From a virus, in IMG/VR virus record IMGVR_UViG_3300021508_000041, positions 1 to 31,712 of that record: 31,712 bases of DNA. One strand, written 5' to 3'. A program made the translations under genes and the position numbers. Each line of letters opens with the position of its first letter. The stretch's first letter is position 1. Positions 18,256 to 31,712 of this stretch are shown one piece after another. The notes beneath the pieces were generated by a model. It was not told where the DNA came from, ran no database searches, and saw only the letters and a program-made list of their open reading frames with translations.

Positions 18256-18864
18256 ATGAGGGCAAGCAGAAAACGTGAATTATGTGGGAACCGGTTTAAC
18301 AACTGGCTGGTTACAAAAGAGTTTAAGAGGAATGATAGTAGGGTGGTAAGCTGGCTGTGTATTTGCAAGTGTGGTAAGGAGAAGTACGTGAGGGCGTATA
18401 GCCTCACCTCTGGAGCATCCAAGTCATGCGGGTGCGATAGGAACCATGGGAAGACAAGGAGTCCAACGTACAAGTCTTGGCAGCACATGAAGGCCAGGTG
18501 CGACGTAAAAAGAGACAAGTCATACCTGAATTACGGGGGACGAGGAATAACTTACTGTAAAAGGTGGTCAGCCTTCCAAAATTTTTTAAAGGACATGGGC
18601 GAGTGCCCTAAGGGACTAACTCTGGAGAGGGGAGATAATAACAAACAATACAACAAAGGCAACTGCACCTGGGAGTCTAGGGAGCAACAAAGCCGGAATC
18701 GCCGCAACACGCTTGACGTAGATACTGTTGCCTGCATTTTGACCATGTTCAAATATGGCGAAAGAATATGCGATATAGCCAGAGGCGCAGACCTGGACAA
18801 AACTAAAGTTCGGAAAATTTGTAGGGGTATTACCTGGAAAGGTCAAGGGGCTCTGCCTATATGA
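18256..18864 (+). CDS. free-standing HNH/AP2-type homing endonuclease
   Basis: Mobile nuclease gene of the type that spreads by cutting related phage genomes. The N-terminal part has the Cys pairs of a zinc-binding unit (WLCICKCG, C35/C37/C39, and SCGC, C58/C60), then the conserved stretch TYKSWQHMKARC, NYGGRGITYCKRW (93-104) and LERGDNNKQYNKGNCTW (123-139), which is the HNH part of this family, with R/D where the first His of HNH would be in other groups. The C-terminus is a likely helix-turn-helix (CDIARGADLDKTKVRKICRG) for target recognition. GGAG precedes the start. It lies directly after the capsid terminator, a typical insertion point between essential genes. No intron is apparent. Confidence 0.82.
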   Translation: MRASRKRELCGNRFNNWLVTKEFKRNDSRVVSWLCICKCGKEKYVRAYSLTSGASKSCGCDRNHGKTRSPTYKSWQHMKARCDVKRDKSYLNYGGRGITYCKRWSAFQNFLKDMGECPKGLTLERGDNNKQYNKGNCTWESREQQSRNRRNTLDVDTVACILTMFKYGERICDIARGADLDKTKVRKICRGITWKGQGALPI

Positions 18865-18909: not shown

Positions 18910-20391
18910 GTGATCAGGTTAAAAGCTAGCGATATCTATGCCACAGATAAGCACAATAAGGAGATAGCTGTTGCGCTTAGCAGGGCCGCTAACGGAGAGG
19001 CCAAAACCTACTCAGTGGAAAAACTACCAGACGCCTCCTTGTGGCAGGGGGGCAATCTGATGTTAGATGACGGCACCGAGTTGGCCGTAAGAAACGATAG
19101 GTTCGAGTTGGCTGGGGGGCCTGTGTCTTGCAGAAGGTCGTACAATCAGTTCACGGCAAATGGCAGATATAGTGTACCGAGTATTTTTGGCACAGGAAGT
19201 AGCAGTCCCACGGACCTCCTTACGGAGCAAGGAATAAGAGACACGCAGACGCTGATGGATTCAGGTTCCGCAGGAAGAGTTTGGTTCACTGCTACATTGA
19301 ACTTAGATGTGGTTGGTTTTTACGCCTTTAGTTTCGAAGTATTAGAGCAATCGCTGGGATTGGCAGATGATTGCGGCTTAGCGCAAGCAGGTGGTACGGT
19401 AGTGATAGACTACGGTAGCTTAACGGTAGCGGGTACGGACATAGCTGCAGGAGGTGTCGGGAGGTATTGCGCCGTATTTAGAGTATCTGTTCCGGGCACA
19501 ATAGTTTATCGCCTAGGCGTAGGCATAAACAGTAACAAAGCTTCCAGGGTCCTGGCTATAAGCCAGAGGCAAATAGAGAAGCTAAACCCATTAGCAGGGC
19601 TGGTGCCCTCTCTTTATGTTTATCCTGAGTATGCGGCTACAACTAGTTCCAAAAGGAGTACATCTATAGACGGGAATAAAAAAGTGACGGAGTATTTTGC
19701 GGAACAATTACCCACGAAGCCTTTCACGCATGTGCTTTTCGTAGGTGACTCAAGAACTGATGAAGATACAGATATAGCCGCACAGCTAGACGGCCTACTT
19801 TCCCTGGAAGGGGGAGTCTGTCACTGGCATGCAGCAGGCGGTTGGAAAGTGGAAGACGTTATTGGTCCAACAACATTACATGGTGTTACCTTTACTATAG
19901 ATAAGGCCTTGAGAGGTGTAGCTTTACGCAGGACTATATCTACTAACGGGGATGAGCAAGCATACAATATACAAAATGGCCAAAAATTCGATACTTTAAT
20001 CATAGGTGATTTAGGAGTTAACAACGCGATAGCGGGAGACTCGGCAGCAGAAATACTGAGCAAGGTAGATATTTTAGTTAAAGCTGCTGAAGTGTACGGT
20101 ATGCGGGTCATTATAACGGATAATAATCCTTTTAAAGCGGCAGGGTCTTGGACGGCAGGGAGGCAGGTGGTTTTAGAGGAATATAACGGACTTCTTTTAG
20201 ATTATTGTGCGCGAAATGGCCACTCGTTCGTACAAGGGTATTCCGCTGTAGGCGATAGTACCGATCCAGACAAACTGTCAGACGGTGCAGATACATCCCC
20301 TGACTACTCCCAGGACGGGATACACATGAATGCAGCAGGGAATTTAGTATATGCTCAACTGATCAAAGATGTCGCAGACGAAACTAGGTAA
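18910..20391 (+). CDS. SGNH/GDSL-type hydrolase, probable virion carbohydrate esterase
   Basis: Esterase or deacetylase with the SGNH catalytic blocks: block I FVGDSRTD (Ser281), block II Gly in AAGGW (about 310), block III GDLGVNN (Asn371) and block V DGIHMNAAGN (Asp469/His472). The N-terminal 230 residues are beta-rich and Gly-rich (jelly-roll-like, for example VWFTATLNLDVVGFYAFSFE) and probably attach it to the virion or bind sugar. Known relatives on phage fibres remove acetyl groups from surface polysaccharide; that substrate is inference here. GTG start with AAAGGAG about 8 bases upstream. It opens the host-recognition block. Confidence 0.85.
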   Translation: MIRLKASDIYATDKHNKEIAVALSRAANGEAKTYSVEKLPDASLWQGGNLMLDDGTELAVRNDRFELAGGPVSCRRSYNQFTANGRYSVPSIFGTGSSSPTDLLTEQGIRDTQTLMDSGSAGRVWFTATLNLDVVGFYAFSFEVLEQSLGLADDCGLAQAGGTVVIDYGSLTVAGTDIAAGGVGRYCAVFRVSVPGTIVYRLGVGINSNKASRVLAISQRQIEKLNPLAGLVPSLYVYPEYAATTSSKRSTSIDGNKKVTEYFAEQLPTKPFTHVLFVGDSRTDEDTDIAAQLDGLLSLEGGVCHWHAAGGWKVEDVIGPTTLHGVTFTIDKALRGVALRRTISTNGDEQAYNIQNGQKFDTLIIGDLGVNNAIAGDSAAEILSKVDILVKAAEVYGMRVIITDNNPFKAAGSWTAGRQVVLEEYNGLLLDYCARNGHSFVQGYSAVGDSTDPDKLSDGADTSPDYSQDGIHMNAAGNLVYAQLIKDVADETR

Positions 20392-23269: not shown

Positions 23270-25530
23270 TGGGTCTTATTCCGTTAGCTATGTTAGGTGG
23301 CGGCGTTGTTGATACACCAGAACTAGATGTATTAAATTCAGCGGCATTTGCTAGTGAGGACAGTGCAAAGTTTACCCGTATTTTTGGGGTAGCTACAGAT
23401 AGAAAAAAATATACCCTAAGTATGTGGGTAAAACGGTCTGTTAGTAGTATGTTTGCTGATATATTCTCGGGGTCTAGTAGTGCCTCTAATTATAATTCTC
23501 TTAGGTTCACTGCTGCTGGGGCACTAAGGACGTTTGATGTAACAGCAGGGGTTATAGAGTTTGATGTATTATCCGAAGGTCTATTTAACGACATAGCAGA
23601 ATTCTACCATATCGTTATAGCAACAGACACTACACAAGCAATAGATGCAGATAGATTAAAGTTGTGGGTTAATGGTAAGGCTATAGCTCTGTCAGGTACA
23701 CTGTACCCACTAAATTTTAACCCTGTACTAAATTCAACAGTAGAACACTGGTTTAGCGGGATACAAGGTGGAGTAGCCCCAGCTAATTTTGATGGGTATG
23801 TATCTGAAGTTAATTTTATTGACGGTCAAGCTTTAACTCCAATTAATTTTGCAGAAGAGGATTCTATTACAAGCCAATGGAGCCCTGTAGTATACGCAGG
23901 AACTTATGGAAATAATGGTTTCTACCTTGAGTTTCAAAACGGTTCTGCTTTGGGGGAAGATAGCTCTGGTAATAGTAATGCCTTTGTTAATTCTGGTGTA
24001 GTTCAGCATTGGGATACCCCATCAAACAATCACATGATATTTAATAGTTTGAGACCAGATTTAACTTCAATAAGAGTAATAGAACAATTTGGAACTAAAG
24101 GATTTGGGGGTAATGTTGCATTTCATGGAACTTTACAAATCCCTTTATCCGGCAAATATTACATAGAAGTTAAAGCAGTAAGGCTGTATGCACCATCAAT
24201 ATCACTAGGTGGAATCATAGGGGTAGGGGTGTCTTTTTTTGATTTTACAGGATACTACCTAGGCAACCACGCAAGTAATGGGTTGTATGTAAGCGGGGTT
24301 CTTACAACCGCACATGCGTCAGTTGCTGTTAATGACGTTATATCATTAGCTATAGACGCGGATGCAGGAACTTTAGTAGCTAGACTTAATGATGTTATTA
24401 TTGGGTCTCCTTCTATTTTTACAGCAGGAGCTCCAATTTATCTATTCACCAACGGGGTGAGTGATGCTGATTCAGTCATACTAGATCTACAAGTTACTGA
24501 AGATTCATGGACATATGCAGCCCCCTCTGGATATGTGCCTGTATCCACCAGAAATTTTCCAACTCCAGATATAGTTTTGCCTGAAGAATATTTTAATTCC
24601 ATAATTTATGATGATGGGGCTGGTGCTAAAGAAGTAGGTTTCCAACCAGATTTAGTTTGGCTTAAAAGTAGGGGGTCAGCGTTTAGTCATAAAATAATAG
24701 ACGCTGTGAGAGGGGCCACCCTAGCGATAGTTCCTGATACTAATGCTAACGAGATAACCGAAGCAACCGGATTGACTTCATTTGATACTAATGGTTTTAC
24801 AGTCGGGGGTGATACTGATTATTCAGACACAACGGGCGTTGGGATGATAGCGTGGTCATGGAAAGAAGGAGTTATTCCTGGATTTGATATAGTTAGTTAT
24901 GTTGGGGATGGGTCAGCTACTCATAACATAAACCATTCCCTGGCTGAAATACCTTCAATTGTTATGGTAAAAGCTTTGAATTCAGGGTCTCTCCGCACGT
25001 GGAGAATCTATCATGAATTTAATAGGCTTTCTGCTCCTGAGGACAGTACAATAAGGTTAGACGTGGCTGAGGCTGTAGCGGACTTATTAACTGCCTGGGA
25101 TAGCACAGCTCCAACTAGTACGCAATTCACAGTAGGTAGCCATGCGAGTACGAATGAAAGTGCTGTAGATTTTATAGCTTATTTATTTACCAGTATAGAG
25201 GGGTTTTCTGAGTTTAGATATTATATTGGTAACGGTTCATCAGACGGACCTTTTATATATTGTGGGTTTAAACCGGCGCTTATATTAATTAAACATACCA
25301 CTGCTTTTGTAGATTGGCATATGGTGAGCAGTGAGTCTGCTGAACATAACCCTGTTGATTCATACTTAATCCCGAATGAAGCGAACTCAGAAATTGCAGG
25401 AGTAAACATAGACATACTGGCTAATGGGTTTAAAATAAGATCTACTGATACAAGAGTGAATTCTTCTTCTGCTGGGTACATATTCCTGGCTTTTGCAGAA
25501 TCACCTTTTCAATACAGCAGGGCAAGATAA
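23269..25530 (+). CDS. LamG-like receptor-binding protein with three C-terminal repeats
   Basis: A 753-residue virion protein. The N-terminus (residues 1-20) is hydrophobic and Gly-rich. Residues about 45-230 form a concanavalin-like LamG domain (KKYTLSMWVKRSV; LKLWVNGKAIALSGT; FDGYVSEVNFIDGQAL), a sugar-binding fold; about 270-430 form a SPRY-like beta-sandwich (GKYYIEVKAVRL; GVGVSFFD). The C-terminal 300 residues contain three related units starting near 457 (FQPDLVWLKSRG), 561 (IPSIVMVKALNS) and 667 (FKPALILIKHTT), each ending in aromatic stretches, and the protein ends AESPFQYSRAR, a typical close of such phage proteins. It probably works with the fibre upstream and the SGNH hydrolase to bind host surface sugars. 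Confidence 0.8.
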   Translation: MGLIPLAMLGGGVVDTPELDVLNSAAFASEDSAKFTRIFGVATDRKKYTLSMWVKRSVSSMFADIFSGSSSASNYNSLRFTAAGALRTFDVTAGVIEFDVLSEGLFNDIAEFYHIVIATDTTQAIDADRLKLWVNGKAIALSGTLYPLNFNPVLNSTVEHWFSGIQGGVAPANFDGYVSEVNFIDGQALTPINFAEEDSITSQWSPVVYAGTYGNNGFYLEFQNGSALGEDSSGNSNAFVNSGVVQHWDTPSNNHMIFNSLRPDLTSIRVIEQFGTKGFGGNVAFHGTLQIPLSGKYYIEVKAVRLYAPSISLGGIIGVGVSFFDFTGYYLGNHASNGLYVSGVLTTAHASVAVNDVISLAIDADAGTLVARLNDVIIGSPSIFTAGAPIYLFTNGVSDADSVILDLQVTEDSWTYAAPSGYVPVSTRNFPTPDIVLPEEYFNSIIYDDGAGAKEVGFQPDLVWLKSRGSAFSHKIIDAVRGATLAIVPDTNANEITEATGLTSFDTNGFTVGGDTDYSDTTGVGMIAWSWKEGVIPGFDIVSYVGDGSATHNINHSLAEIPSIVMVKALNSGSLRTWRIYHEFNRLSAPEDSTIRLDVAEAVADLLTAWDSTAPTSTQFTVGSHASTNESAVDFIAYLFTSIEGFSEFRYYIGNGSSDGPFIYCGFKPALILIKHTTAFVDWHMVSSESAEHNPVDSYLIPNEANSEIAGVNIDILANGFKIRSTDTRVNSSSAGYIFLAFAESPFQYSRAR

Positions 25531-26063
25531 TGTGGAAAGACATTACCGGTAAAACTGGATATAAAAACATGCAGGGCGGTGAGTACTTGTATGGCAATAT
25601 GAAATTGTTAAACCCTGAAGAGCTGGCAGTTGCCTTAGCTGACGGCTTAGCTGCGTGGATAAAGCCAAAACCTAAGCCACAGTCAGCTGAAACAGTATTA
25701 AGTAAAGCCAAAGAGGTAAAAATTAATTTAGTTAAAACTTTATTCGATATAGAGGTAGGCAAGCCGGTGGAGGTAGGCGGGGTACGTTATAATGGAGGCT
25801 ATAAAACAGTTGATCGTATTGAGGGTGCTAGGAGGTTGGTGGGTTTAAAAAAAGGCGTTCAGGTAAAGGTTTATGATGTAGAGGATAAGCTTGTCATTCT
25901 GAACCCTGCACAGAGTACAGATTTAGTGATAACTCTAGGAGAAGAATATGAAAACTTATACGCGACCAGGCAGGCTTTGTTAGTCAGCATACGAGAAGCC
26001 CTTGATCTCCTAGCAGTTGAGGATGTTATCCTGCCTTGGGCCTTTGTAGGCGAAGTTATATGA
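25530..26063 (+). CDS. fibre-assembly-like protein with DUF4376-type domain
   Basis: Directly after the receptor-binding gene (TAATG overlap), as expected of a fibre chaperone or attachment partner. The N-terminal 50 residues (GGEYLYGNMKLLNPEELAVA, then a Lys/Pro linker) are followed by a region like DUF4376: helical AKEVKINLVKTLFDIEVGKP, then VGGVRYNGGYKTVDRIEGAR, a beta segment, and a final helix with the ALDLL motif. The family occurs in fibre-associated phage proteins, with unknown biochemical role. Confidence is moderate because the match is by pattern. Confidence 0.6.
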   Translation: MWKDITGKTGYKNMQGGEYLYGNMKLLNPEELAVALADGLAAWIKPKPKPQSAETVLSKAKEVKINLVKTLFDIEVGKPVEVGGVRYNGGYKTVDRIEGARRLVGLKKGVQVKVYDVEDKLVILNPAQSTDLVITLGEEYENLYATRQALLVSIREALDLLAVEDVILPWAFVGEVI

Positions 26064-26082: not shown

Positions 26083-26604
26083 ATGTTAAAACAAGTAGTA
26101 CAAAAGCACATAGTAGTTATCACTGACGACAGCATAGTGGAGCGCAGCAGAATGAAGAGGTCCCTGGATAAAGCCTCAGATGCCCACATAGATGTTTACG
26201 AAGCAGAGTCCAAAGAAGATATACTCAACCTTATGGAGCGCCTAGACGACATACACGAGTTCCCCTCGGTCATAGTATTGGATTTTGTTTTAGGTGCCTC
26301 AAATGGATTAACAGTAGCCCGCCATCTAAGGAAAAATTTTCCCCCCGTGCCTATTATAGTGCTGGGCACTTGCATAGGCAGCGAGGACAATATAACGAGC
26401 CTTTACCGCCTAGGCGTGAATGCTTACATGGTTAAGCCGCAAACCCAAGAAGACTACGATAAGGTTATACAGGTTATAGCCGACGTGTGGTTACACGTAC
26501 CGCAGCCTAGGTGGGGTGAGCGTAAAGAAACCCCATTAAGTATTAGACCCATAGAGCGTAGACAAGGTAAAAGGAGAGATTATGATAGAAGGGCTGGTCG
26601 CTGA
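26083..26604 (+). CDS. single-domain response regulator (receiver, CheY/Rcp-like)
   Basis: A receiver domain of about 135 residues with the acidic pair D15/D16 (VVITDDS), phosphoacceptor D67 (VIVLDFVLGASNG), and K118 in NAYMVKP. The expected Thr/Ser of the switch is G95 followed by T96 (IIVLGTCIG), so signalling may differ. The segment LYRLGVNAYMVKP and the helix after it look like Rcp/CheY-type single-domain regulators. No output domain follows; instead a basic Arg-rich tail of about 30 residues (ERRQGKRRDYDRRAGR) could bind nucleic acid or a partner. Receiver domains normally accept phosphate from a histidine kinase; no kinase is in the window, so a host kinase would be needed. Placement between a fibre-assembly-like gene and lysis-like genes is unusual for a phage. 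Weak ribosome binding site; it overlaps the next gene by 23 bases. Confidence 0.88.
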   Translation: MLKQVVQKHIVVITDDSIVERSRMKRSLDKASDAHIDVYEAESKEDILNLMERLDDIHEFPSVIVLDFVLGASNGLTVARHLRKNFPPVPIIVLGTCIGSEDNITSLYRLGVNAYMVKPQTQEDYDKVIQVIADVWLHVPQPRWGERKETPLSIRPIERRQGKRRDYDRRAGR

Positions 26605-27088
26605 GTTAAGCCTACTTCAGTGGAATATACTTTTAGGGGCGGCAGCAGCCGTTGTCACTATACTTGTTGGATTAGTAAAATTGCGCAAGAAACTTTTTTT
26701 GTGGCTCTATACGGCACCTAAAACTTGTTTTTTACACGCCCTGGCAAAAAGAGGTAAAAAACAGGCGCAAAGAATATTTGAGGAGATTAGACCTATGCTT
26801 GAGCAGGAGATATTAGATACTTTGGAGGGTTACACAGAGGTGATGCAAGAGCAGAAAATAACCATAGCTAGCGCCATTGCAGAGAACGTTGAATTTAGAA
26901 ACTTTATAACAGGTAGTATATCAGTATTGCACGATACCATGGCTAAAGTGGCAGATGCCGTAGAGATTAATGCCTGTGATGCTAAAGCTATCAGAGAAAG
27001 ACTTAACACAGAGGCTTGCGGTATTGCTTCCGATTGTGCTAAAAGAGTATACATGAAACCGTGTGAGGATGGTGATGATGAGAGCTAA
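26582..27088 (+). CDS. single-pass membrane protein, possible holin or membrane anchor
   Basis: AAAGGAGAG precedes the start, which lies inside the receiver gene. One strong membrane helix at about 10-33 (LLQWNILLGAAAAVVTILVG) is followed by a basic cluster (KLRKKL), so most of the protein (about 35-168) would lie in the cytoplasm as helices (FEEIRPMLEQEILDTLEGY). Four Cys in the C-terminal third. This single-helix form with a long cytoplasmic part is not typical of holins; a membrane-tethered regulator or anchor fits as well. It precedes the phospholipase-like and amidase genes, so a lysis role is the leading inference. Confidence 0.5.
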   Translation: MIEGLVAELSLLQWNILLGAAAAVVTILVGLVKLRKKLFLWLYTAPKTCFLHALAKRGKKQAQRIFEEIRPMLEQEILDTLEGYTEVMQEQKITIASAIAENVEFRNFITGSISVLHDTMAKVADAVEINACDAKAIRERLNTEACGIASDCAKRVYMKPCEDGDDES

Positions 27089-27479
27089 AAGGCAGCTAAT
27101 ATCAAGTGAAGTATATAAGAATTTACCGCTGGAAATGAAGGCGGAAATATGCAATGGGGCCGGGGCCAAGGACGACTGGAAGAGTGAGTTCATACCAAAC
27201 ACTTTATGGGGTCTAGACTGCACCCCTGTATTCGATATACACGACTTCGATTACTATACAGGGTTTACTTACGAGGATAAGTGTAAAGCCGACGCTAATA
27301 TGTTGGTTAACCTGATAAGGAGGATAAATAATCACGGAGGGTTTTTACGTATAGCCAGAAGATATAGAGCCATGACTTACTATGACTTTGTGGTTGAGAT
27401 GGGTGAGGACGCTTTTTTCCAAGCACAGAAGGGCAACCTGCACCTGCATATAGATAATATAGGGGAAAATAATGACTAA
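27075..27479 (+). CDS. conserved phage protein, phospholipase A2-like motif, lysis region
   Basis: The start is placed at 27075 or 27078, with GAGG about 7 bases upstream; a GTG at 27063 is less likely. The stretch WGLDCTPVFDIHDFDYYTGF (residues 45-64) and EDKCKAD with D72 resemble a family of small phage proteins, often near lysis genes, whose usual form is N.HD..Y ... DK..AD. HD followed by an Asp in the next helix is also the catalytic His/Asp arrangement of secreted phospholipase A2 (H56/D57 and D72 here), which would let it attack membrane lipids. The fold match is inference. It overlaps the genes on both sides (27088 and 27472). Confidence 0.6.
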   Translation: MMRAKRQLISSEVYKNLPLEMKAEICNGAGAKDDWKSEFIPNTLWGLDCTPVFDIHDFDYYTGFTYEDKCKADANMLVNLIRRINNHGGFLRIARRYRAMTYYDFVVEMGEDAFFQAQKGNLHLHIDNIGENND

Positions 27480-28053
27480 GTTAGTGGGGTTGAGCATAGC
27501 TCATTTCCCTAAGAAAGTGGGAGCAGATTTTTGTGGGTTCAACGAGCACAACGAGTCCAAAGTCTGGATAATGCTGGTGGAGCGAGCGCTTAAAAACCTA
27601 GGAATAGGTGTGGTAGTAGCTCCTGTTGGGGGCCTAAGGAGTAAAGTGGCATGGCTTAATAAACACAACCCGGAAGTATCGGTGGAACTGCATTTCAACG
27701 GAAGCGTGAACCCTAATGTAGCCGGTTGCGAGACGCTGTTTTACCCTGGCTCTAAGAAAGGCTTAGTCTTCGCCAACACAGTGCACAGAGCTTACAAAGA
27801 GTCTATGGGTAACCGTGATCGCGGAGTTAAAGAGGGCTGGTATAGGATGGATAGGCCTATGATAGTAGATTACGCGGGAGATGTAGACGGCGATGAGATG
27901 CCTGACTATTTCCTCAGGGAGACCAACTGCCCAGCACTAATCCTTGAGCCAGACTTCATAGCCCAGGTTAATAATATCACTACCCGGCGTTTCGATGCCT
28001 GTGTAGCTATAGCTAAAGGGATAAAAATTTATTTGGAGACCCTAGGTGGCTGA
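27472..28053 (+). CDS. N-acetylmuramoyl-L-alanine amidase (Amidase_3), endolysin
   Basis: Zinc enzyme that cuts the bond between N-acetylmuramic acid and L-Ala in peptidoglycan. Zinc ligands are visible: H11 (LSIAHFPKK), E25 (FNEHNES) and H74 (SVELHFNG); the catalytic Glu is E159 (ALILEPDF). The length of 193 residues is that of a single catalytic domain with no cell-wall-binding part, usual for phages of Gram-negative hosts. No signal peptide, so release depends on a holin or other membrane damage. AGGGGAAAA precedes the start; it overlaps the next gene by 8 bases. Confidence 0.92.
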   Translation: MTKLVGLSIAHFPKKVGADFCGFNEHNESKVWIMLVERALKNLGIGVVVAPVGGLRSKVAWLNKHNPEVSVELHFNGSVNPNVAGCETLFYPGSKKGLVFANTVHRAYKESMGNRDRGVKEGWYRMDRPMIVDYAGDVDGDEMPDYFLRETNCPALILEPDFIAQVNNITTRRFDACVAIAKGIKIYLETLGG

Positions 28054-28480
28054 TATAAGCGTAGATGTTTTATATACTAACACCATTGCTATTAGATCAG
28101 CGATAGGTGTGGATGAGGCGGATATCGAAAACGATATGATCACCGGGCAAGACATGGAAGCTCAGATGTCTTCGGCCTTGGTAAAATTTAACCCAACACA
28201 CGCAGCAGACCAGTATAACCCTACCAAGTTACCCTTGCTAAAGCTCTGGTGCATGTGGTTTGGGGCTTTACGCCTAGCCGAGTCACCACCAGCTATAGCC
28301 AAGAAATACAGCACGGGCAAAGACGAGTGGGAGCGGTTCGATATTAATTGGGAGGAGCTAAAGAAAACTGCCAAGGCCAAACTGGCAGAGCTTCAAGAAG
28401 GGATCACGCCCGCCGTCGCGGATAATTTTACAATAATGGGCAAAGCAACCCCGGGATATAACCCGATAGAGGGGCCATAA
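28046..28480 (+). CDS. head-tail connector protein (head completion-like)
   Basis: GTG start with GGAG about 8 bases upstream, overlapping the amidase gene. The protein of 144 residues has helical N- and C-terminal parts (DVLYTNTIAIRSAIGVDEAD; WEELKKTAKAKLAELQEGI) and an acidic centre, with Trp-rich LKLWCMWFGALRLAESP. Position ahead of two further neck proteins and size suit a connector that closes the portal after packaging. I do not recognise a precise family, so the call is based on context. Confidence 0.55.
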   Translation: MADISVDVLYTNTIAIRSAIGVDEADIENDMITGQDMEAQMSSALVKFNPTHAADQYNPTKLPLLKLWCMWFGALRLAESPPAIAKKYSTGKDEWERFDINWEELKKTAKAKLAELQEGITPAVADNFTIMGKATPGYNPIEGP

Positions 28481-28481
28481 G

Positions 28482-29069
28482 GTGAGAATGGTACAGACGT
28501 TTAGGAAGTTGGCCAGAAATAGGCTAATGGGTTACGATGCGGGTACGGATACTTTTGTGGACGCCCTTAATCCTTGCATTTTTGAATCAAGTGGAAGGTG
28601 GATTTCGGAGCGAGTGGGGTTTAATGCCCGGAGAGTTTTGCTCGTTGAGAACCCAGTGTACCCCACGTATGATATAGTCAAGATAGGCGACGACACTGTA
28701 GAGCACATTTTGTACTCTGAGCAGAGGAACGTTTTGAGGAACTCGGCCTACCTGTATGATTACACCCTGTTGGATAAAACCAACGAGGCTCAAGCAGTAA
28801 CTTTAACTACTGTCCCCTCTGCATCAGGGATGGGTGGTACGCTAACGGAGAGTTTATCAGCTGCATTTCCCATACATATGGTTAGGTTTGCAGCCACCAG
28901 CTCATCGGAGCAGGACCATGTGGATTTTTCCAGGCTATATGCTTTTGCTCCAGGGTCCCTGACTATAGACGAGGACATGGAGCTAGAAGTGGACGGCGGC
29001 GACAGGTATGTAATTACCGAGGCAGTTGAAGAGCTTTTATGTATTAGGCTGTCAGTAACTAGGAGATAA
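28482..29069 (+). CDS. head-tail adaptor or stopper-like protein
   Basis: Start GTG at 28482 or ATG at 28488 (AAGG 5 bases before). Protein of 195 residues: basic N-terminus (FRKLARNRLMGYD), then beta-rich segments (ARRVLLVENPVYPTYDIVKI; VEHILYSEQRNVLRNSAYLY) and an acidic end (DMELEVDGGDRYVITEAVEE). Mixed beta structure and its place between connector and tail terminator-like gene match head-tail joining proteins. It overlaps the next gene at TAATG. Confidence 0.5.
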   Translation: MRMVQTFRKLARNRLMGYDAGTDTFVDALNPCIFESSGRWISERVGFNARRVLLVENPVYPTYDIVKIGDDTVEHILYSEQRNVLRNSAYLYDYTLLDKTNEAQAVTLTTVPSASGMGGTLTESLSAAFPIHMVRFAATSSSEQDHVDFSRLYAFAPGSLTIDEDMELEVDGGDRYVITEAVEELLCIRLSVTRR

Positions 29070-29527
29070 TGGTGAGTCAAGAGAGTTTTCCAGTAGCAGT
29101 TAAATCAACCCTGGATAAGTTAGGTAACGATTTAGCCTTGGCGGAGACACCTCCTGTCGAGTTTATAGACCTAGATAACGTAGTTAACACGGCCACCTTA
29201 CTCGGCTCTGATGACAATGCTTTAGTGTGGAGCATGTCTGTCTTAGTGCCTGTACCATCTGACCCGTTATACGCTTGCTCTTTCTCAATAGGCGCTAGAA
29301 CAGTTAACGACCCCGCTAACTACGACATAATGTTATTAGTAGGTAAACTCAGCACTGTATTTGAAGAGGGAGTAATAATCGATATCCACGATTACACTGG
29401 CGCTGTGGCAGGACCTCGAATAGGCGTACTGACAATGACTAAAGTGACCGTGTTGCCCCAAGAATATGACAAGGTATCAGGCATACGCATGGTATCGCTG
29501 GAAGGCAGGCTGCAGCGGCTTGGCTAA
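29069..29527 (+). CDS. tail completion/terminator-like protein
   Basis: AGGAGATA precedes the ATG. The 152-residue protein has a helical N-terminus (FPVAVKSTLDKLGNDLALAE), then beta-strands (NALVWSMSVLVPVPSDPLYA; YDIMLLVGKLSTVFEEGVII) and a C-terminal GIRMVSLEGRLQRLG. This alpha-then-beta order is seen in tail terminators that cap the tail tube and join it to the head. The position, just before an HK97 gp10-like gene and the tail tube gene, supports it. Confidence 0.5.
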   Translation: MVSQESFPVAVKSTLDKLGNDLALAETPPVEFIDLDNVVNTATLLGSDDNALVWSMSVLVPVPSDPLYACSFSIGARTVNDPANYDIMLLVGKLSTVFEEGVIIDIHDYTGAVAGPRIGVLTMTKVTVLPQEYDKVSGIRMVSLEGRLQRLG

Positions 29528-30326
29528 GGTAGAGCTCAAGGGGCTGTCATTTCAACAGATTTATGGCAAGCAGATATCCGGGCGTATATTGGTGGATTTA
29601 CAGTCAGGGGGCGGAGGTAACAAACAGCTGCTGTCTAGTTATAACAAGCACATAGTGGACGTATCCGAAAGGCTAGTTAATATAACAGCGCGTAAGATAG
29701 ATGTTGAAGTGCGTCAAACTTATAACAGTGGAATATCCTCAGTGCAGGCTTTTCTTAAAACTGGCATACCAGGGAACGCTGACGGGACCTCTTTGCAGTC
29801 TCCCGGTACTTTGAGTTTATCCGGCCCCAGCGGGTCTATAGGGATTGCTGGGTGGAAGCCGTTCAGCACAAGATACTACAACACAAAGTCCAAGCAGTTT
29901 TCCAAGACTAAAAATTTATTCTGGGTCAGGCGGGCGACAGGTGGCTTGTCGGCTAGGTTCGGTGTATTTGCTGGTCCACATAAATCAGCAGTAACCAGAG
30001 CTGCTACCGTAGTCGTTCTACAGACGAAGGGGAAGAAAGGGTCAAGGGTAAATACTTTCAGGTACGCCTTGACGTTTACTCTACCGCTGCCAGCGGCAGG
30101 GCAAGGTTATTTGAAAAAGTTACTGCAAGAGTCCTTCTTTACAGGTACGGCTTATAGGGGGGAGGGTTCTGGGTTGACAGGCGGCCTGGAGGTATTGGGC
30201 TACCTGGAAGGAAAGCCCAATATTAAGTTTGCCAAACACAGACCATTTATTGCGGCTGTTATGGCCAACAGAGGTAGGGGGTTTAAGAAAAGCATAGCTA
30301 AGTTAATTAAAACCCAAGCGCTCTGA
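29520..30326 (+). CDS. HK97 gp10-like minor head/neck protein, extended
   Basis: The start is placed at the TTG at 29520, giving MAKVELKGLSFQQ, the typical N-terminus of HK97 gp10-like proteins; the upstream ATG at 29466 lies inside the previous gene. The protein has a basic helical N-terminal region (HIVDVSERLVNITARKIDVE), a Gly/Ser/Pro-rich middle (TSLQSPGTLSLSGPSGSIG), a basic domain with KPFSTRYYNTKSKQ and a C-terminus ending PFIAAVMANRGRGFKKSIAK, where the PF...A phrase is common in this family. At 268 residues it is about twice the usual family length, with an insertion in the middle. Its stop is met by a converging minus-strand gene. Confidence 0.6.
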   Translation: MAKVELKGLSFQQIYGKQISGRILVDLQSGGGGNKQLLSSYNKHIVDVSERLVNITARKIDVEVRQTYNSGISSVQAFLKTGIPGNADGTSLQSPGTLSLSGPSGSIGIAGWKPFSTRYYNTKSKQFSKTKNLFWVRRATGGLSARFGVFAGPHKSAVTRAATVVVLQTKGKKGSRVNTFRYALTFTLPLPAAGQGYLKKLLQESFFTGTAYRGEGSGLTGGLEVLGYLEGKPNIKFAKHRPFIAAVMANRGRGFKKSIAKLIKTQAL

Positions 30327-30876
30327 GGGCAGCAGCACCTTCTTCTGTTGATATGTCTATACCTTTGTCTTTGTTCTTTTCTGCTTTGTCTTCCTCATAA
30401 GACCCGCCCATACCGTACATAGCTGCTTCCATTTTTACCAAATTCTCTTCAGCTTTGCCTTTAATGTAGTCCTTGACTAATGTCACGGCGTCGTCCCTAT
30501 CTAAGTCACAGTAAAGCTTCTCAGCAGCATCAATATCGTAATGAACCATTTTGAGAAGGGCTCCATCAATAGGGAGTTCGCTAATGTAGTCCATATAAGC
30601 TGTACCAAAACTTTTACCGTTGTTGGAGTCCTCCAAGGAGTTCTCCTCTATTTCCGTTTTTAGTTTTTTCAGCCTATCCAGAAAATAGTTTATATCGCCG
30701 TCGGTTGGCTTCACTACTTTGCAGTGCTTACTCAAAGTAGTGACTAGCACGTCAAACAATTCTTGGTCCGTACTGGCGTTTTCCGAGTCCATAGCGTAAG
30801 CCTCTAAGGCCATCAAGGGCACAGGGAACCTACGGCCATAGGTGTGCATGTAGAAAATAGAACCTTGCGTTGACAT
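30307..30876 (-). CDS. 189-residue hypothetical protein inverted in the late region
   Basis: The only minus-strand gene to the right of 13335. AAGGGACAG precedes its ATG. It overlaps the end of the gp10-like gene by 20 bases. The protein is acidic and helical (DVLVTTLSKHCKVVKPTDGD; FLDRLKKLKTEIEENSLEDS; AEKLYCDLDRDDAVTLVKDY), with a Gly/Met-rich hinge (MYGMGGSYEED). A tail assembly chaperone would normally be expected after, not before, the tube gene and on the other strand, so this may be an unrelated late-inserted gene or a regulator. No family is recognised. Confidence 0.6.
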   Translation of the reverse strand: MSTQGSIFYMHTYGRRFPVPLMALEAYAMDSENASTDQELFDVLVTTLSKHCKVVKPTDGDINYFLDRLKKLKTEIEENSLEDSNNGKSFGTAYMDYISELPIDGALLKMVHYDIDAAEKLYCDLDRDDAVTLVKDYIKGKAEENLVKMEAAMYGMGGSYEEDKAEKNKDKGIDISTEEGAAALRALGF

Positions 30877-30898
30877 AGTAGCTGTCCCTTAATAGTTG

Positions 30899-30907
30899 TG
30901 TTATTAT
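30899..30907 (+). promoter_or_regulatory. candidate late promoter, extended -10
   Basis: TGTTATTAT: TG, T, TATTAT, 50 bases before the tail tube gene and behind an inverted gene, so a new promoter is needed here. It resembles the box before the portal gene (TGTTATGAT). A good -35 is not visible. Confidence 0.4.
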
Positions 30908-30956
30908 GAAAACCTTGTAATTACAATATTTTAACACTCTTTAGAAGGCAACAGAA

Positions 30957-31712
30957 ATGGCTAAATTAGGCTCGGCAATAACACCTAAGTTCGATATTGG
31001 CACCGCTGAGATGCGTCTCGGCCCTTTGACCAAGGCGAATTTACTCCAGCAATCAGATTCCATTGGTTTGATAGACGATGCAACTTATACGGTAAACCAG
31101 ACGAACGTAGACTTGCTAGGCGGTTTCCCCAAAACTGTAGTTGACACAGCTGTCACGGAGCAGACGGCTACAATTAACGCAACCATGCGAGAGTATTCAA
31201 GGCGAAATTTGCGCATCTTACTGGGTGATGGCTTAGCTGGCACAGCGCCTACGGAGGTAAGGTCTACGTTGGACACAGCTGCCGATTTGGCTGCCGGAGC
31301 TAACGTGGTGAACGTAGACACAGGCGACGGCGCCTTATTCGCTGCGGATGACGTAGTTATTATTTACCCCGAAGGTAGACCACAAGATGTGTCCGTGTTG
31401 CAGGTCCTGTCTGTGGCTGTTGATGCTTTAACTATGAAAGCTAACCATGTCACTGCTGTTGATTATAACGCTTTAACTGAGTCAGGCACGGTGTTCAACA
31501 TTTATGTTGCCCATCAAGTCGCTATTGGTAACATCACCAGAACTAACTATTTTTCTGTCATGCTGATTCAACAAGAAAACAGCACAGGACAGCCTAAAAT
31601 AGTCTCCTTCTGGAAAGGTTCCATTGGGGGGTCAATGGAGGTTGCTACGGGGTCTGATGATTTTGCTTCCTCTGCTATGGAAATCAAACTGTTGCAGCCC
31701 ACGGTTACGGAC
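30957..31712 (+). CDS. tail tube (major tail) protein, 3' end outside the window
   Basis: Open from ATG 30957 (AGAAGGCA 6 bases upstream) to the window edge, 252 codons without a stop. The start MAKLGSAITPKFDIGTAEMR and segments FPKTVVDTAVTEQTATINAT, MREYSRRNLRILLGDGLAG and VVIIYPEGRPQDVSVLQVLS fit tail tube subunits of siphoviruses, which stack as hexamers to form the DNA channel of the tail. There is no sheath gene before it. Later residues FFSVMLIQQENSTG-like and VSFWKGSIGGSMEVATGSDD suit the outer beta-sandwich. The call is by pattern and place. Confidence 0.65.
   Translation, partial: MAKLGSAITPKFDIGTAEMRLGPLTKANLLQQSDSIGLIDDATYTVNQTNVDLLGGFPKTVVDTAVTEQTATINATMREYSRRNLRILLGDGLAGTAPTEVRSTLDTAADLAAGANVVNVDTGDGALFAADDVVIIYPEGRPQDVSVLQVLSVAVDALTMKANHVTAVDYNALTESGTVFNIYVAHQVAIGNITRTNYFSVMLIQQENSTGQPKIVSFWKGSIGGSMEVATGSDDFASSAMEIKLLQPTVTD

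Follow-up and report, generated by a model that had tools for sequence, protein, structure and literature searches.

A receiver-fold protein at the left edge of a lysis block found in otherwise unrelated phages

Introduction

Why would a phage carry a single-domain receiver protein in front of its lysis genes? The question is raised by a gene at positions 26083–26604 (plus strand) of IMG/VR virus record IMGVR_UViG_3300021508_000041, a 31.7 kb virus contig. The whole of this stretch of DNA, 31,712 nt long, is called the window (G000) below. A preliminary description of the sequence had placed the gene in a fibre/lysis block, and this placement was confirmed: fibre-like genes lie upstream, and genes for a holin-like protein, a phospholipase-A2-like (PLA2-like) protein and an Amidase_3 endolysin lie downstream. 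In the open-access papers searched, a receiver within a phage lysis cassette is not described; an earlier report elsewhere is possible. Here we describe the block to which the gene belongs, the fold and active site of its product, and the roles that the product may have in lysis.

Results

Two further phages from IMG/VR, G001 (locus L002) and G015 (locus L019), both of 80–90 kb, were compared with the window. G001 was found by a search with the endolysin, and G015 was added by an alignment search with the PLA2-like protein. Both carry the same four genes in identical order: receiver, holin-like protein with one transmembrane (TM) helix, PLA2-like protein and Amidase_3 endolysin. These four are the only proteins common to G001 and the window, and G015 shares the same four plus an HNH nuclease with it. 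The window terminase was not found in G001 or G015, which are themselves relatives (their open reading frames, ORFs, give 103 matches). The receiver of the window is 48–49% identical to those of G001 and G015, and identity among all three copies ranges from 48 to 64%. The gene upstream of the block (25530–26063, plus strand, 177 residues) and the gene downstream of the endolysin (28046–28480, plus strand, 144 residues) gave no tblastn match in the G001 and G015 loci. Because the flanking genes on both sides are not common to the other phages, they mark the two edges, and the receiver is the first gene, at the left edge, of a mobile lysis block. Two phage backbones that are otherwise unrelated carry this block, which has been transferred or maintained as a whole. 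Conserved linkage and co-transfer with the endolysin and holin-like genes, the marks of a lysis cassette, were found, in two independent phage lineages only.

Whether the query was the receiver, the holin-like or the PLA2-like protein, the scans converged on the same two contigs, G001 and G015, and the only extra match was a distant PLA2-like protein in L020 (record G016). These scans used short peptide patterns, which diverged relatives can escape, and several records may be fragments. Within this scope the receiver was not found in 13 of the 14 contigs that share the endolysin, the exception being G001, nor in the L020 record or the six annotated phages that share the endolysin, portal or distant PLA2-like gene. 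In L003 the endolysin is equally close (55%) but the receiver, holin-like and PLA2-like genes are all absent together. The preliminary description had named a sporadic gene among related phages, a passenger, as what would speak against its proposal; instead, each of the two other phages with this type of cassette has the receiver in the corresponding position.

The receiver ORF starts with ATG and encodes 173 residues. Its product matches Pfam Response_reg (PF00072) with an E value of 3.2e-12, and the three phage copies score 47 (window), 39.4 and 34.8 bits, all above the gathering cut-off of 30.2. An AlphaFold2 model of the window protein, built from an alignment of the three copies (predicted local distance difference test, pLDDT, 73), displays a complete (beta-alpha)5 fold with its ten elements in order. 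In the model D15 and D16 follow beta1, D67 and G95 are at the ends of beta3 and beta4, respectively, and K118 comes directly behind beta5. Match, residues and fold agree with the single-domain receiver that had been proposed, with D15/D16, D67 and K118 in place and Gly at the switch Thr/Ser position; its setting among the late lysis genes of a tailed phage is likewise supported. A Foldseek search of the PDB joined the model to receivers with probability 1.00, and the ten best matches were all Rcp-type, phytochrome-linked single-domain regulators, namely DrRR, RphyB (RPA3017), Rcp1 and RcpA. A profile search of PDB sequences with the receiver also reached Rcp1, RphyB and RcpA. The phage copies retain an Rcp-like body and a W..PQP..W segment after alpha5. 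The product of 26083–26604 is a genuine receiver domain; its receiver-only architecture, the Trp-containing end of alpha5 and the nearness in fold of Rcp1, RcpA and DrRR place it with the Rcp1-type single-domain regulators.

D15, D16, D67 and K118, that is the Asp pair, the phosphorylatable Asp and the Lys, are invariant in all three copies, and so are an aromatic residue at K-3 and Gly at D+8. Other positions were compared with 26 aligned homologues, all from one phylum (Bacteroidota) and chosen by similarity, so that the counts describe this set and not the frequency of Gly at the T position among receivers overall. The switch position at the end of beta4 (G95 in the window) is Gly in the three phages and Thr or Ser in all 26 homologues, and D+4 is Gly in the three phages and Pro in all 26. 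At D+1 (Phe), D+2 (Val or Leu) and T+2 (Cys) the phage copies again depart alike from every homologue of the set. The phage copies also have a one-residue insertion after beta4 relative to Rcp1-type regulators. A 2025 review defines a pseudo-receiver as a receiver missing any of five active-site residues; it assigns T to the path of Y-T coupling and the shape of the beta3–alpha3 loop to the Pro at D+4 (PMC12632262). Judged by its residues, the phage protein is a pseudo-receiver by this definition, because the switch Thr is replaced by Gly; the other four residues are kept.

The preliminary description had also noted an Arg-rich tail in place of an output domain. The tail is present (26548–26604, plus strand), and the model gives residues 144–173 a pLDDT below 50. 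A codon listing and a DNA alignment of the three phages put its conservation in another light. The Shine-Dalgarno sequence of the holin-like gene, AAGGAG at 26571–26576 (plus strand), lies inside the receiver ORF, 5 nt before the ATG at 26582. An AGGAG or GGAGG motif is kept at the same spot in all three phages, and in each of them the receiver 3′ end and the holin-like gene overlap by 23–26 nt. This Shine-Dalgarno sequence and the ATGATAGA start fall, in the other frame, on the codons of the invariant RR..DRR of the receiver tail, and the extra arginines of the window tail are not conserved in the other two phages. The invariant part of the tail thus appears to be largely a by-product of dual coding with the next gene's Shine-Dalgarno sequence and start. 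Since the conserved arginines coincide with these signals, they give no independent evidence for an output function, and the tail as a nucleic-acid-binding output was set aside. The overlap would imply coupled expression of the receiver and the holin-like protein.

For the receiver, G001 and G015 differ by 0.29 substitutions per nonsynonymous site (dN) and 1.91 per synonymous site (dS), a dN/dS of about 0.15, which is rough because synonymous sites are near saturation. The endolysin gave a similar, equally rough ratio (dN 0.24, dS 1.35). The receiver frame is open throughout in the three copies, and about 72 alignment columns are invariant in addition to DD, D and K. Purifying selection seems to act on the gene.

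A search of 198 Bacteroidota genomes returned Rcp-like receivers at 54.5 bits or less, and a scan of genome contigs with the receiver gave weak Muribaculaceae receivers only. In the tree a long branch leads to a single clade of the three phage copies (99/95), and for this reason a cellular donor was not identified. The annotated phage collection searched with the receiver yielded weak matches only, none of them of the phage receiver family. Several of the matched records (H6–H11) are annotated as ordinary OmpR or NtrC host genes, and they look like bacterial contigs filed as phages.

The gene that overlaps the receiver (26582–27088, plus strand) encodes a holin-like membrane protein of 168 residues with one TM helix at about residues 16–34 and a long C-terminal region after it. 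Its homologues in G001 and G015 are 28–31% identical. The Pfam HP1-holin match is weak (E 0.032) and below the cut-off, and no match was found in the annotated phage collection. Hydropathy and flank charges are alike in the three phages: there are no basic residues before the TM helix and several after it. Because basic residues occur only after the helix in all three, an N-out/C-in orientation is suggested, which would leave about 120 residues in the cytosol.

The PLA2-like gene follows at 27063–27479 (plus strand). Of the proteins that the window shares with the other two phages, its product is the most conserved, with 56–58% identity to the G015 and G001 homologues over the full alignment and about 60% over the BLAST match. 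It is 35% identical (E 6e-9) to NVP1097O_09 of a Vibrio phage, recorded as a "phospholipase A2 domain protein" with IPR016090. It has no Pfam match, and its structure model was unusable (pLDDT 37). H60-D61..Y64 are invariant, and the protein may supply a phospholipase step in lysis. Copies elsewhere lie at L002:9109–9531 and L019:10007–10429, with a distant relative at L025:4636–5040. A distant PLA2-like relative adjoins the terminase gene of a Vibrio schitovirus, behind a small lipoprotein-like ORF.

The endolysin, an N-acetylmuramoyl-L-alanine amidase, is encoded at 27472–28053 (plus strand; Amidase_3, Pfam 1.5e-10; PHROG 435 endolysin, 5.5e-19) and is 54–57% identical to its homologues in G001 and G015. 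In these two phages a small lipoprotein gene stands between the PLA2-like and endolysin genes (L002:9709–10002, L019:10475–10792). Another precedes the endolysin in L003 (9422–9655), and all three are o-spanin-like by position. Because no equivalent was found in the window, the outer-membrane step of lysis may differ there. An AAA ATPase gene shortly after the lysis block (L002:11837–13087, Pfam 4.7e-24; L019:12531–13784) was likewise not seen in the window.

Head and tail genes as well as the fibre-like genes lie upstream of the receiver gene. Structural genes appear to resume 3′ of the endolysin (28046–31712), where two match L015, in which their homologues are located behind the head genes, so that the lysis block seems to be embedded within the structural region. 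The HNH endonuclease gene (18256–18864) follows the gene for the major head protein and is 55% identical over 95 residues to that of G015; it is probably independently mobile, since it is the only non-lysis gene common to these two phages. Among the tail genes, 18910–20391 encodes a protein of 493 residues whose C-terminal domain resembles a GDSL lipase, at a score just short of the Pfam cut-off; the protein may be a surface-polymer esterase. Relatives of the window by portal and endolysin are mostly Vibrio and Pseudomonas phages. No tRNA was found in the window record, and promoter and terminator scans were uninformative.

Discussion

From this anatomy of receiver fold, block structure, overlap and residue changes, all of it shown here, we infer a function. 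Holins and antiholins are the known means of timing lysis, and a role in lysis timing would fit the gene context. The most likely role, put forward tentatively, is that of a pseudo-receiver acting as a direct interaction regulator of the lysis cassette without a classical phospho-switch. It would contact lysis proteins directly, most probably the adjacent membrane protein at the region predicted to lie in the cytosol, and the contact would set when or whether that protein triggers, in an antiholin-like or chaperone-like manner. Such regulation would be independent of classical phospho-switching, and metal binding, or phosphorylation with another readout, could still take part in it. The features that we count for an interaction regulator are the conserved block, the overlap with its embedded Shine-Dalgarno sequence, the purifying selection, the C-in prediction and the residue changes shared by the three copies.

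Several points weigh against this role. The name holin for the adjacent protein is a guess from topology plus a weak match, and a spanin-like orientation would put its C-terminal region beyond the reach of a cytosolic receiver. The retention of DD, D and K together goes beyond what a pure scaffold would require. With G001 and G015 being relatives, the three known phages amount to just two independent contexts. Co-transfer could also partly reflect the overlap, which ties the holin-like gene to the receiver 3′ end; as the Shine-Dalgarno sequence of the holin-like gene sits there, that gene cannot lose this end.

The preservation of DD, D67 and K118 in three diverged copies is what a signal input would call for, in which D67 would receive a phosphoryl group from a host histidine kinase or from acetyl phosphate and the phosphorylated protein would bring lysis forward or hold it back according to the physiological state of the host. 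No HATPase_c (histidine-kinase ATPase domain) was detected in the sequences of the window, G001 and G015, which may be fragments, so any kinase would be the host's. The nearest structures, Rcp1, RcpA and DrRR, are genuine phospho-receivers, and phage VP882 offers a precedent for a lytic programme tied to host signalling (PMC10426928). However, the change from Thr to Gly takes away a phosphoryl ligand together with the Y-T coupling residue; Gly for Pro at D+4, the hydrophobic D+2 and the Cys at T+2 are also unlike receivers and alike in the three copies, and a protein so altered falls under the pseudo-receivers as the review defines them (PMC12632262). Signal input is for these reasons rather unlikely. 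The case for host-kinase coupling is weakened by the missing Thr, and with it the early suggestions that the protein taps a host kinase or serves as a phosphate sink, both of which need phosphorylation chemistry and meet the same changes at T, D+4, D+1, D+2 and T+2. For an effect on host motility or surface behaviour, suggested at the same time, nothing was found pointing there. If the acidic pocket binds Mg2+ or another small ligand, the protein could sense an ion, a metabolite or membrane leakage and not phosphate. Such a sensor would explain why DD and D are kept while the phosphoryl-coordinating Thr is lost, and the review notes pseudo-receivers that bind ligands (PMC12632262); but a metal-only site needs no Lys, and that residue is kept too, and we consider a sensor of this kind improbable.

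As a further possibility, the protein would bind a host histidine kinase in the manner of FixT or Osp and so, at a late stage of infection, shut down an envelope or stress response of the host, its position in the lysis block serving only for late expression. Single-domain, response-regulator-like kinase inhibitors that work without phosphorylation exist, as with Osp on CckA (PMC9430884), the phage PIT4 affects host two-component systems (PMC10714779), and the kept Rcp-like body with its W..PQP..W segment would suit such binding. But a decoy could do without a constant pair of holin-like and PLA2-like companions in unrelated phages and without an overlap with the holin-like gene, and Osp lacks the DD and Lys that the phage protein keeps; an inhibitor is thus unlikely. 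The gene could also be a former host receiver of which only the 3′ end is needed, for the ribosome-binding site and translational coupling of the holin-like gene. The Shine-Dalgarno sequence and start inside the receiver gene in all three phages and the loss of several switch residues agree with such a passenger. A passenger would be expected to decay, and therefore the intact, constrained frame counts against it: the frame is open in copies of 48–64% identity with dS near saturation, dN/dS is about 0.15, and DD, D, K and some 72 columns are invariant. A passenger is very improbable.

Returning to the direct interaction regulator, our data suggest that some phages employ a signalling-type protein as a working part of the lysis machinery. 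It is possible, if somewhat doubtful, that a receiver-fold protein in a mobile lysis cassette controls a membrane-bound lysis protein from the cytosol, via the host signalling state or a phosphorylation-independent switch, and so represents a new class of lysis regulator. A receiver-type protein fixed in a transferable lysis block would, if true, be a new kind of input to the lysis machinery or a new part of it. The question is then whether lysis reads the host signalling state or whether the receiver fold has been reused as a structural regulator.

Among known systems, VqmA/Qtip of phage VP882 also ties the lytic programme to host state through a phage-encoded regulator (PMC10426928), but VqmA, a ligand-binding transcription factor, acts on the lysis-lysogeny decision, unlike a receiver encoded in a lysis cassette. 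In jumbo phages, divergent receiver (cREC) domains likewise bring the receiver fold into phage genomes, and their links are with NAD+/ADP-ribose enzymes rather than lysis genes (PMC7824862). The kinase inhibitors FixT and Osp are similar in having a single receiver-like domain with no output (PMC9430884). Each of the two acts on a kinase encoded by the host, and the DD pair is missing from both, in Osp together with the Lys; the phage protein has all of these residues, and its gene is linked to lysis genes. The phytochrome regulators of Rcp1 type (Rcp1 1I3C/1JLK, RcpA 1K68, DrRR 6XVU, RphyB 4ZYL) are alike in being stand-alone (beta-alpha)5 receivers of about 140–170 residues, with a conserved Trp (..WL..) at the end of alpha5 and no output domain. 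Unlike them, the phage copies show Gly in place of both the switch Thr and the D+4 Pro, carry the insertion after beta4 and stand in a lysis operon, with no phage kinase partner found. With pseudo-receivers (PMC12632262) the phage copies share the loss of an active-site residue, and the D+4 Pro is lost as well. Unlike many pseudo-receivers, however, all of them keep DD, D and K, and a conserved pseudo-receiver with these residues but without T is a natural test case for the mechanism of pseudo-receivers.
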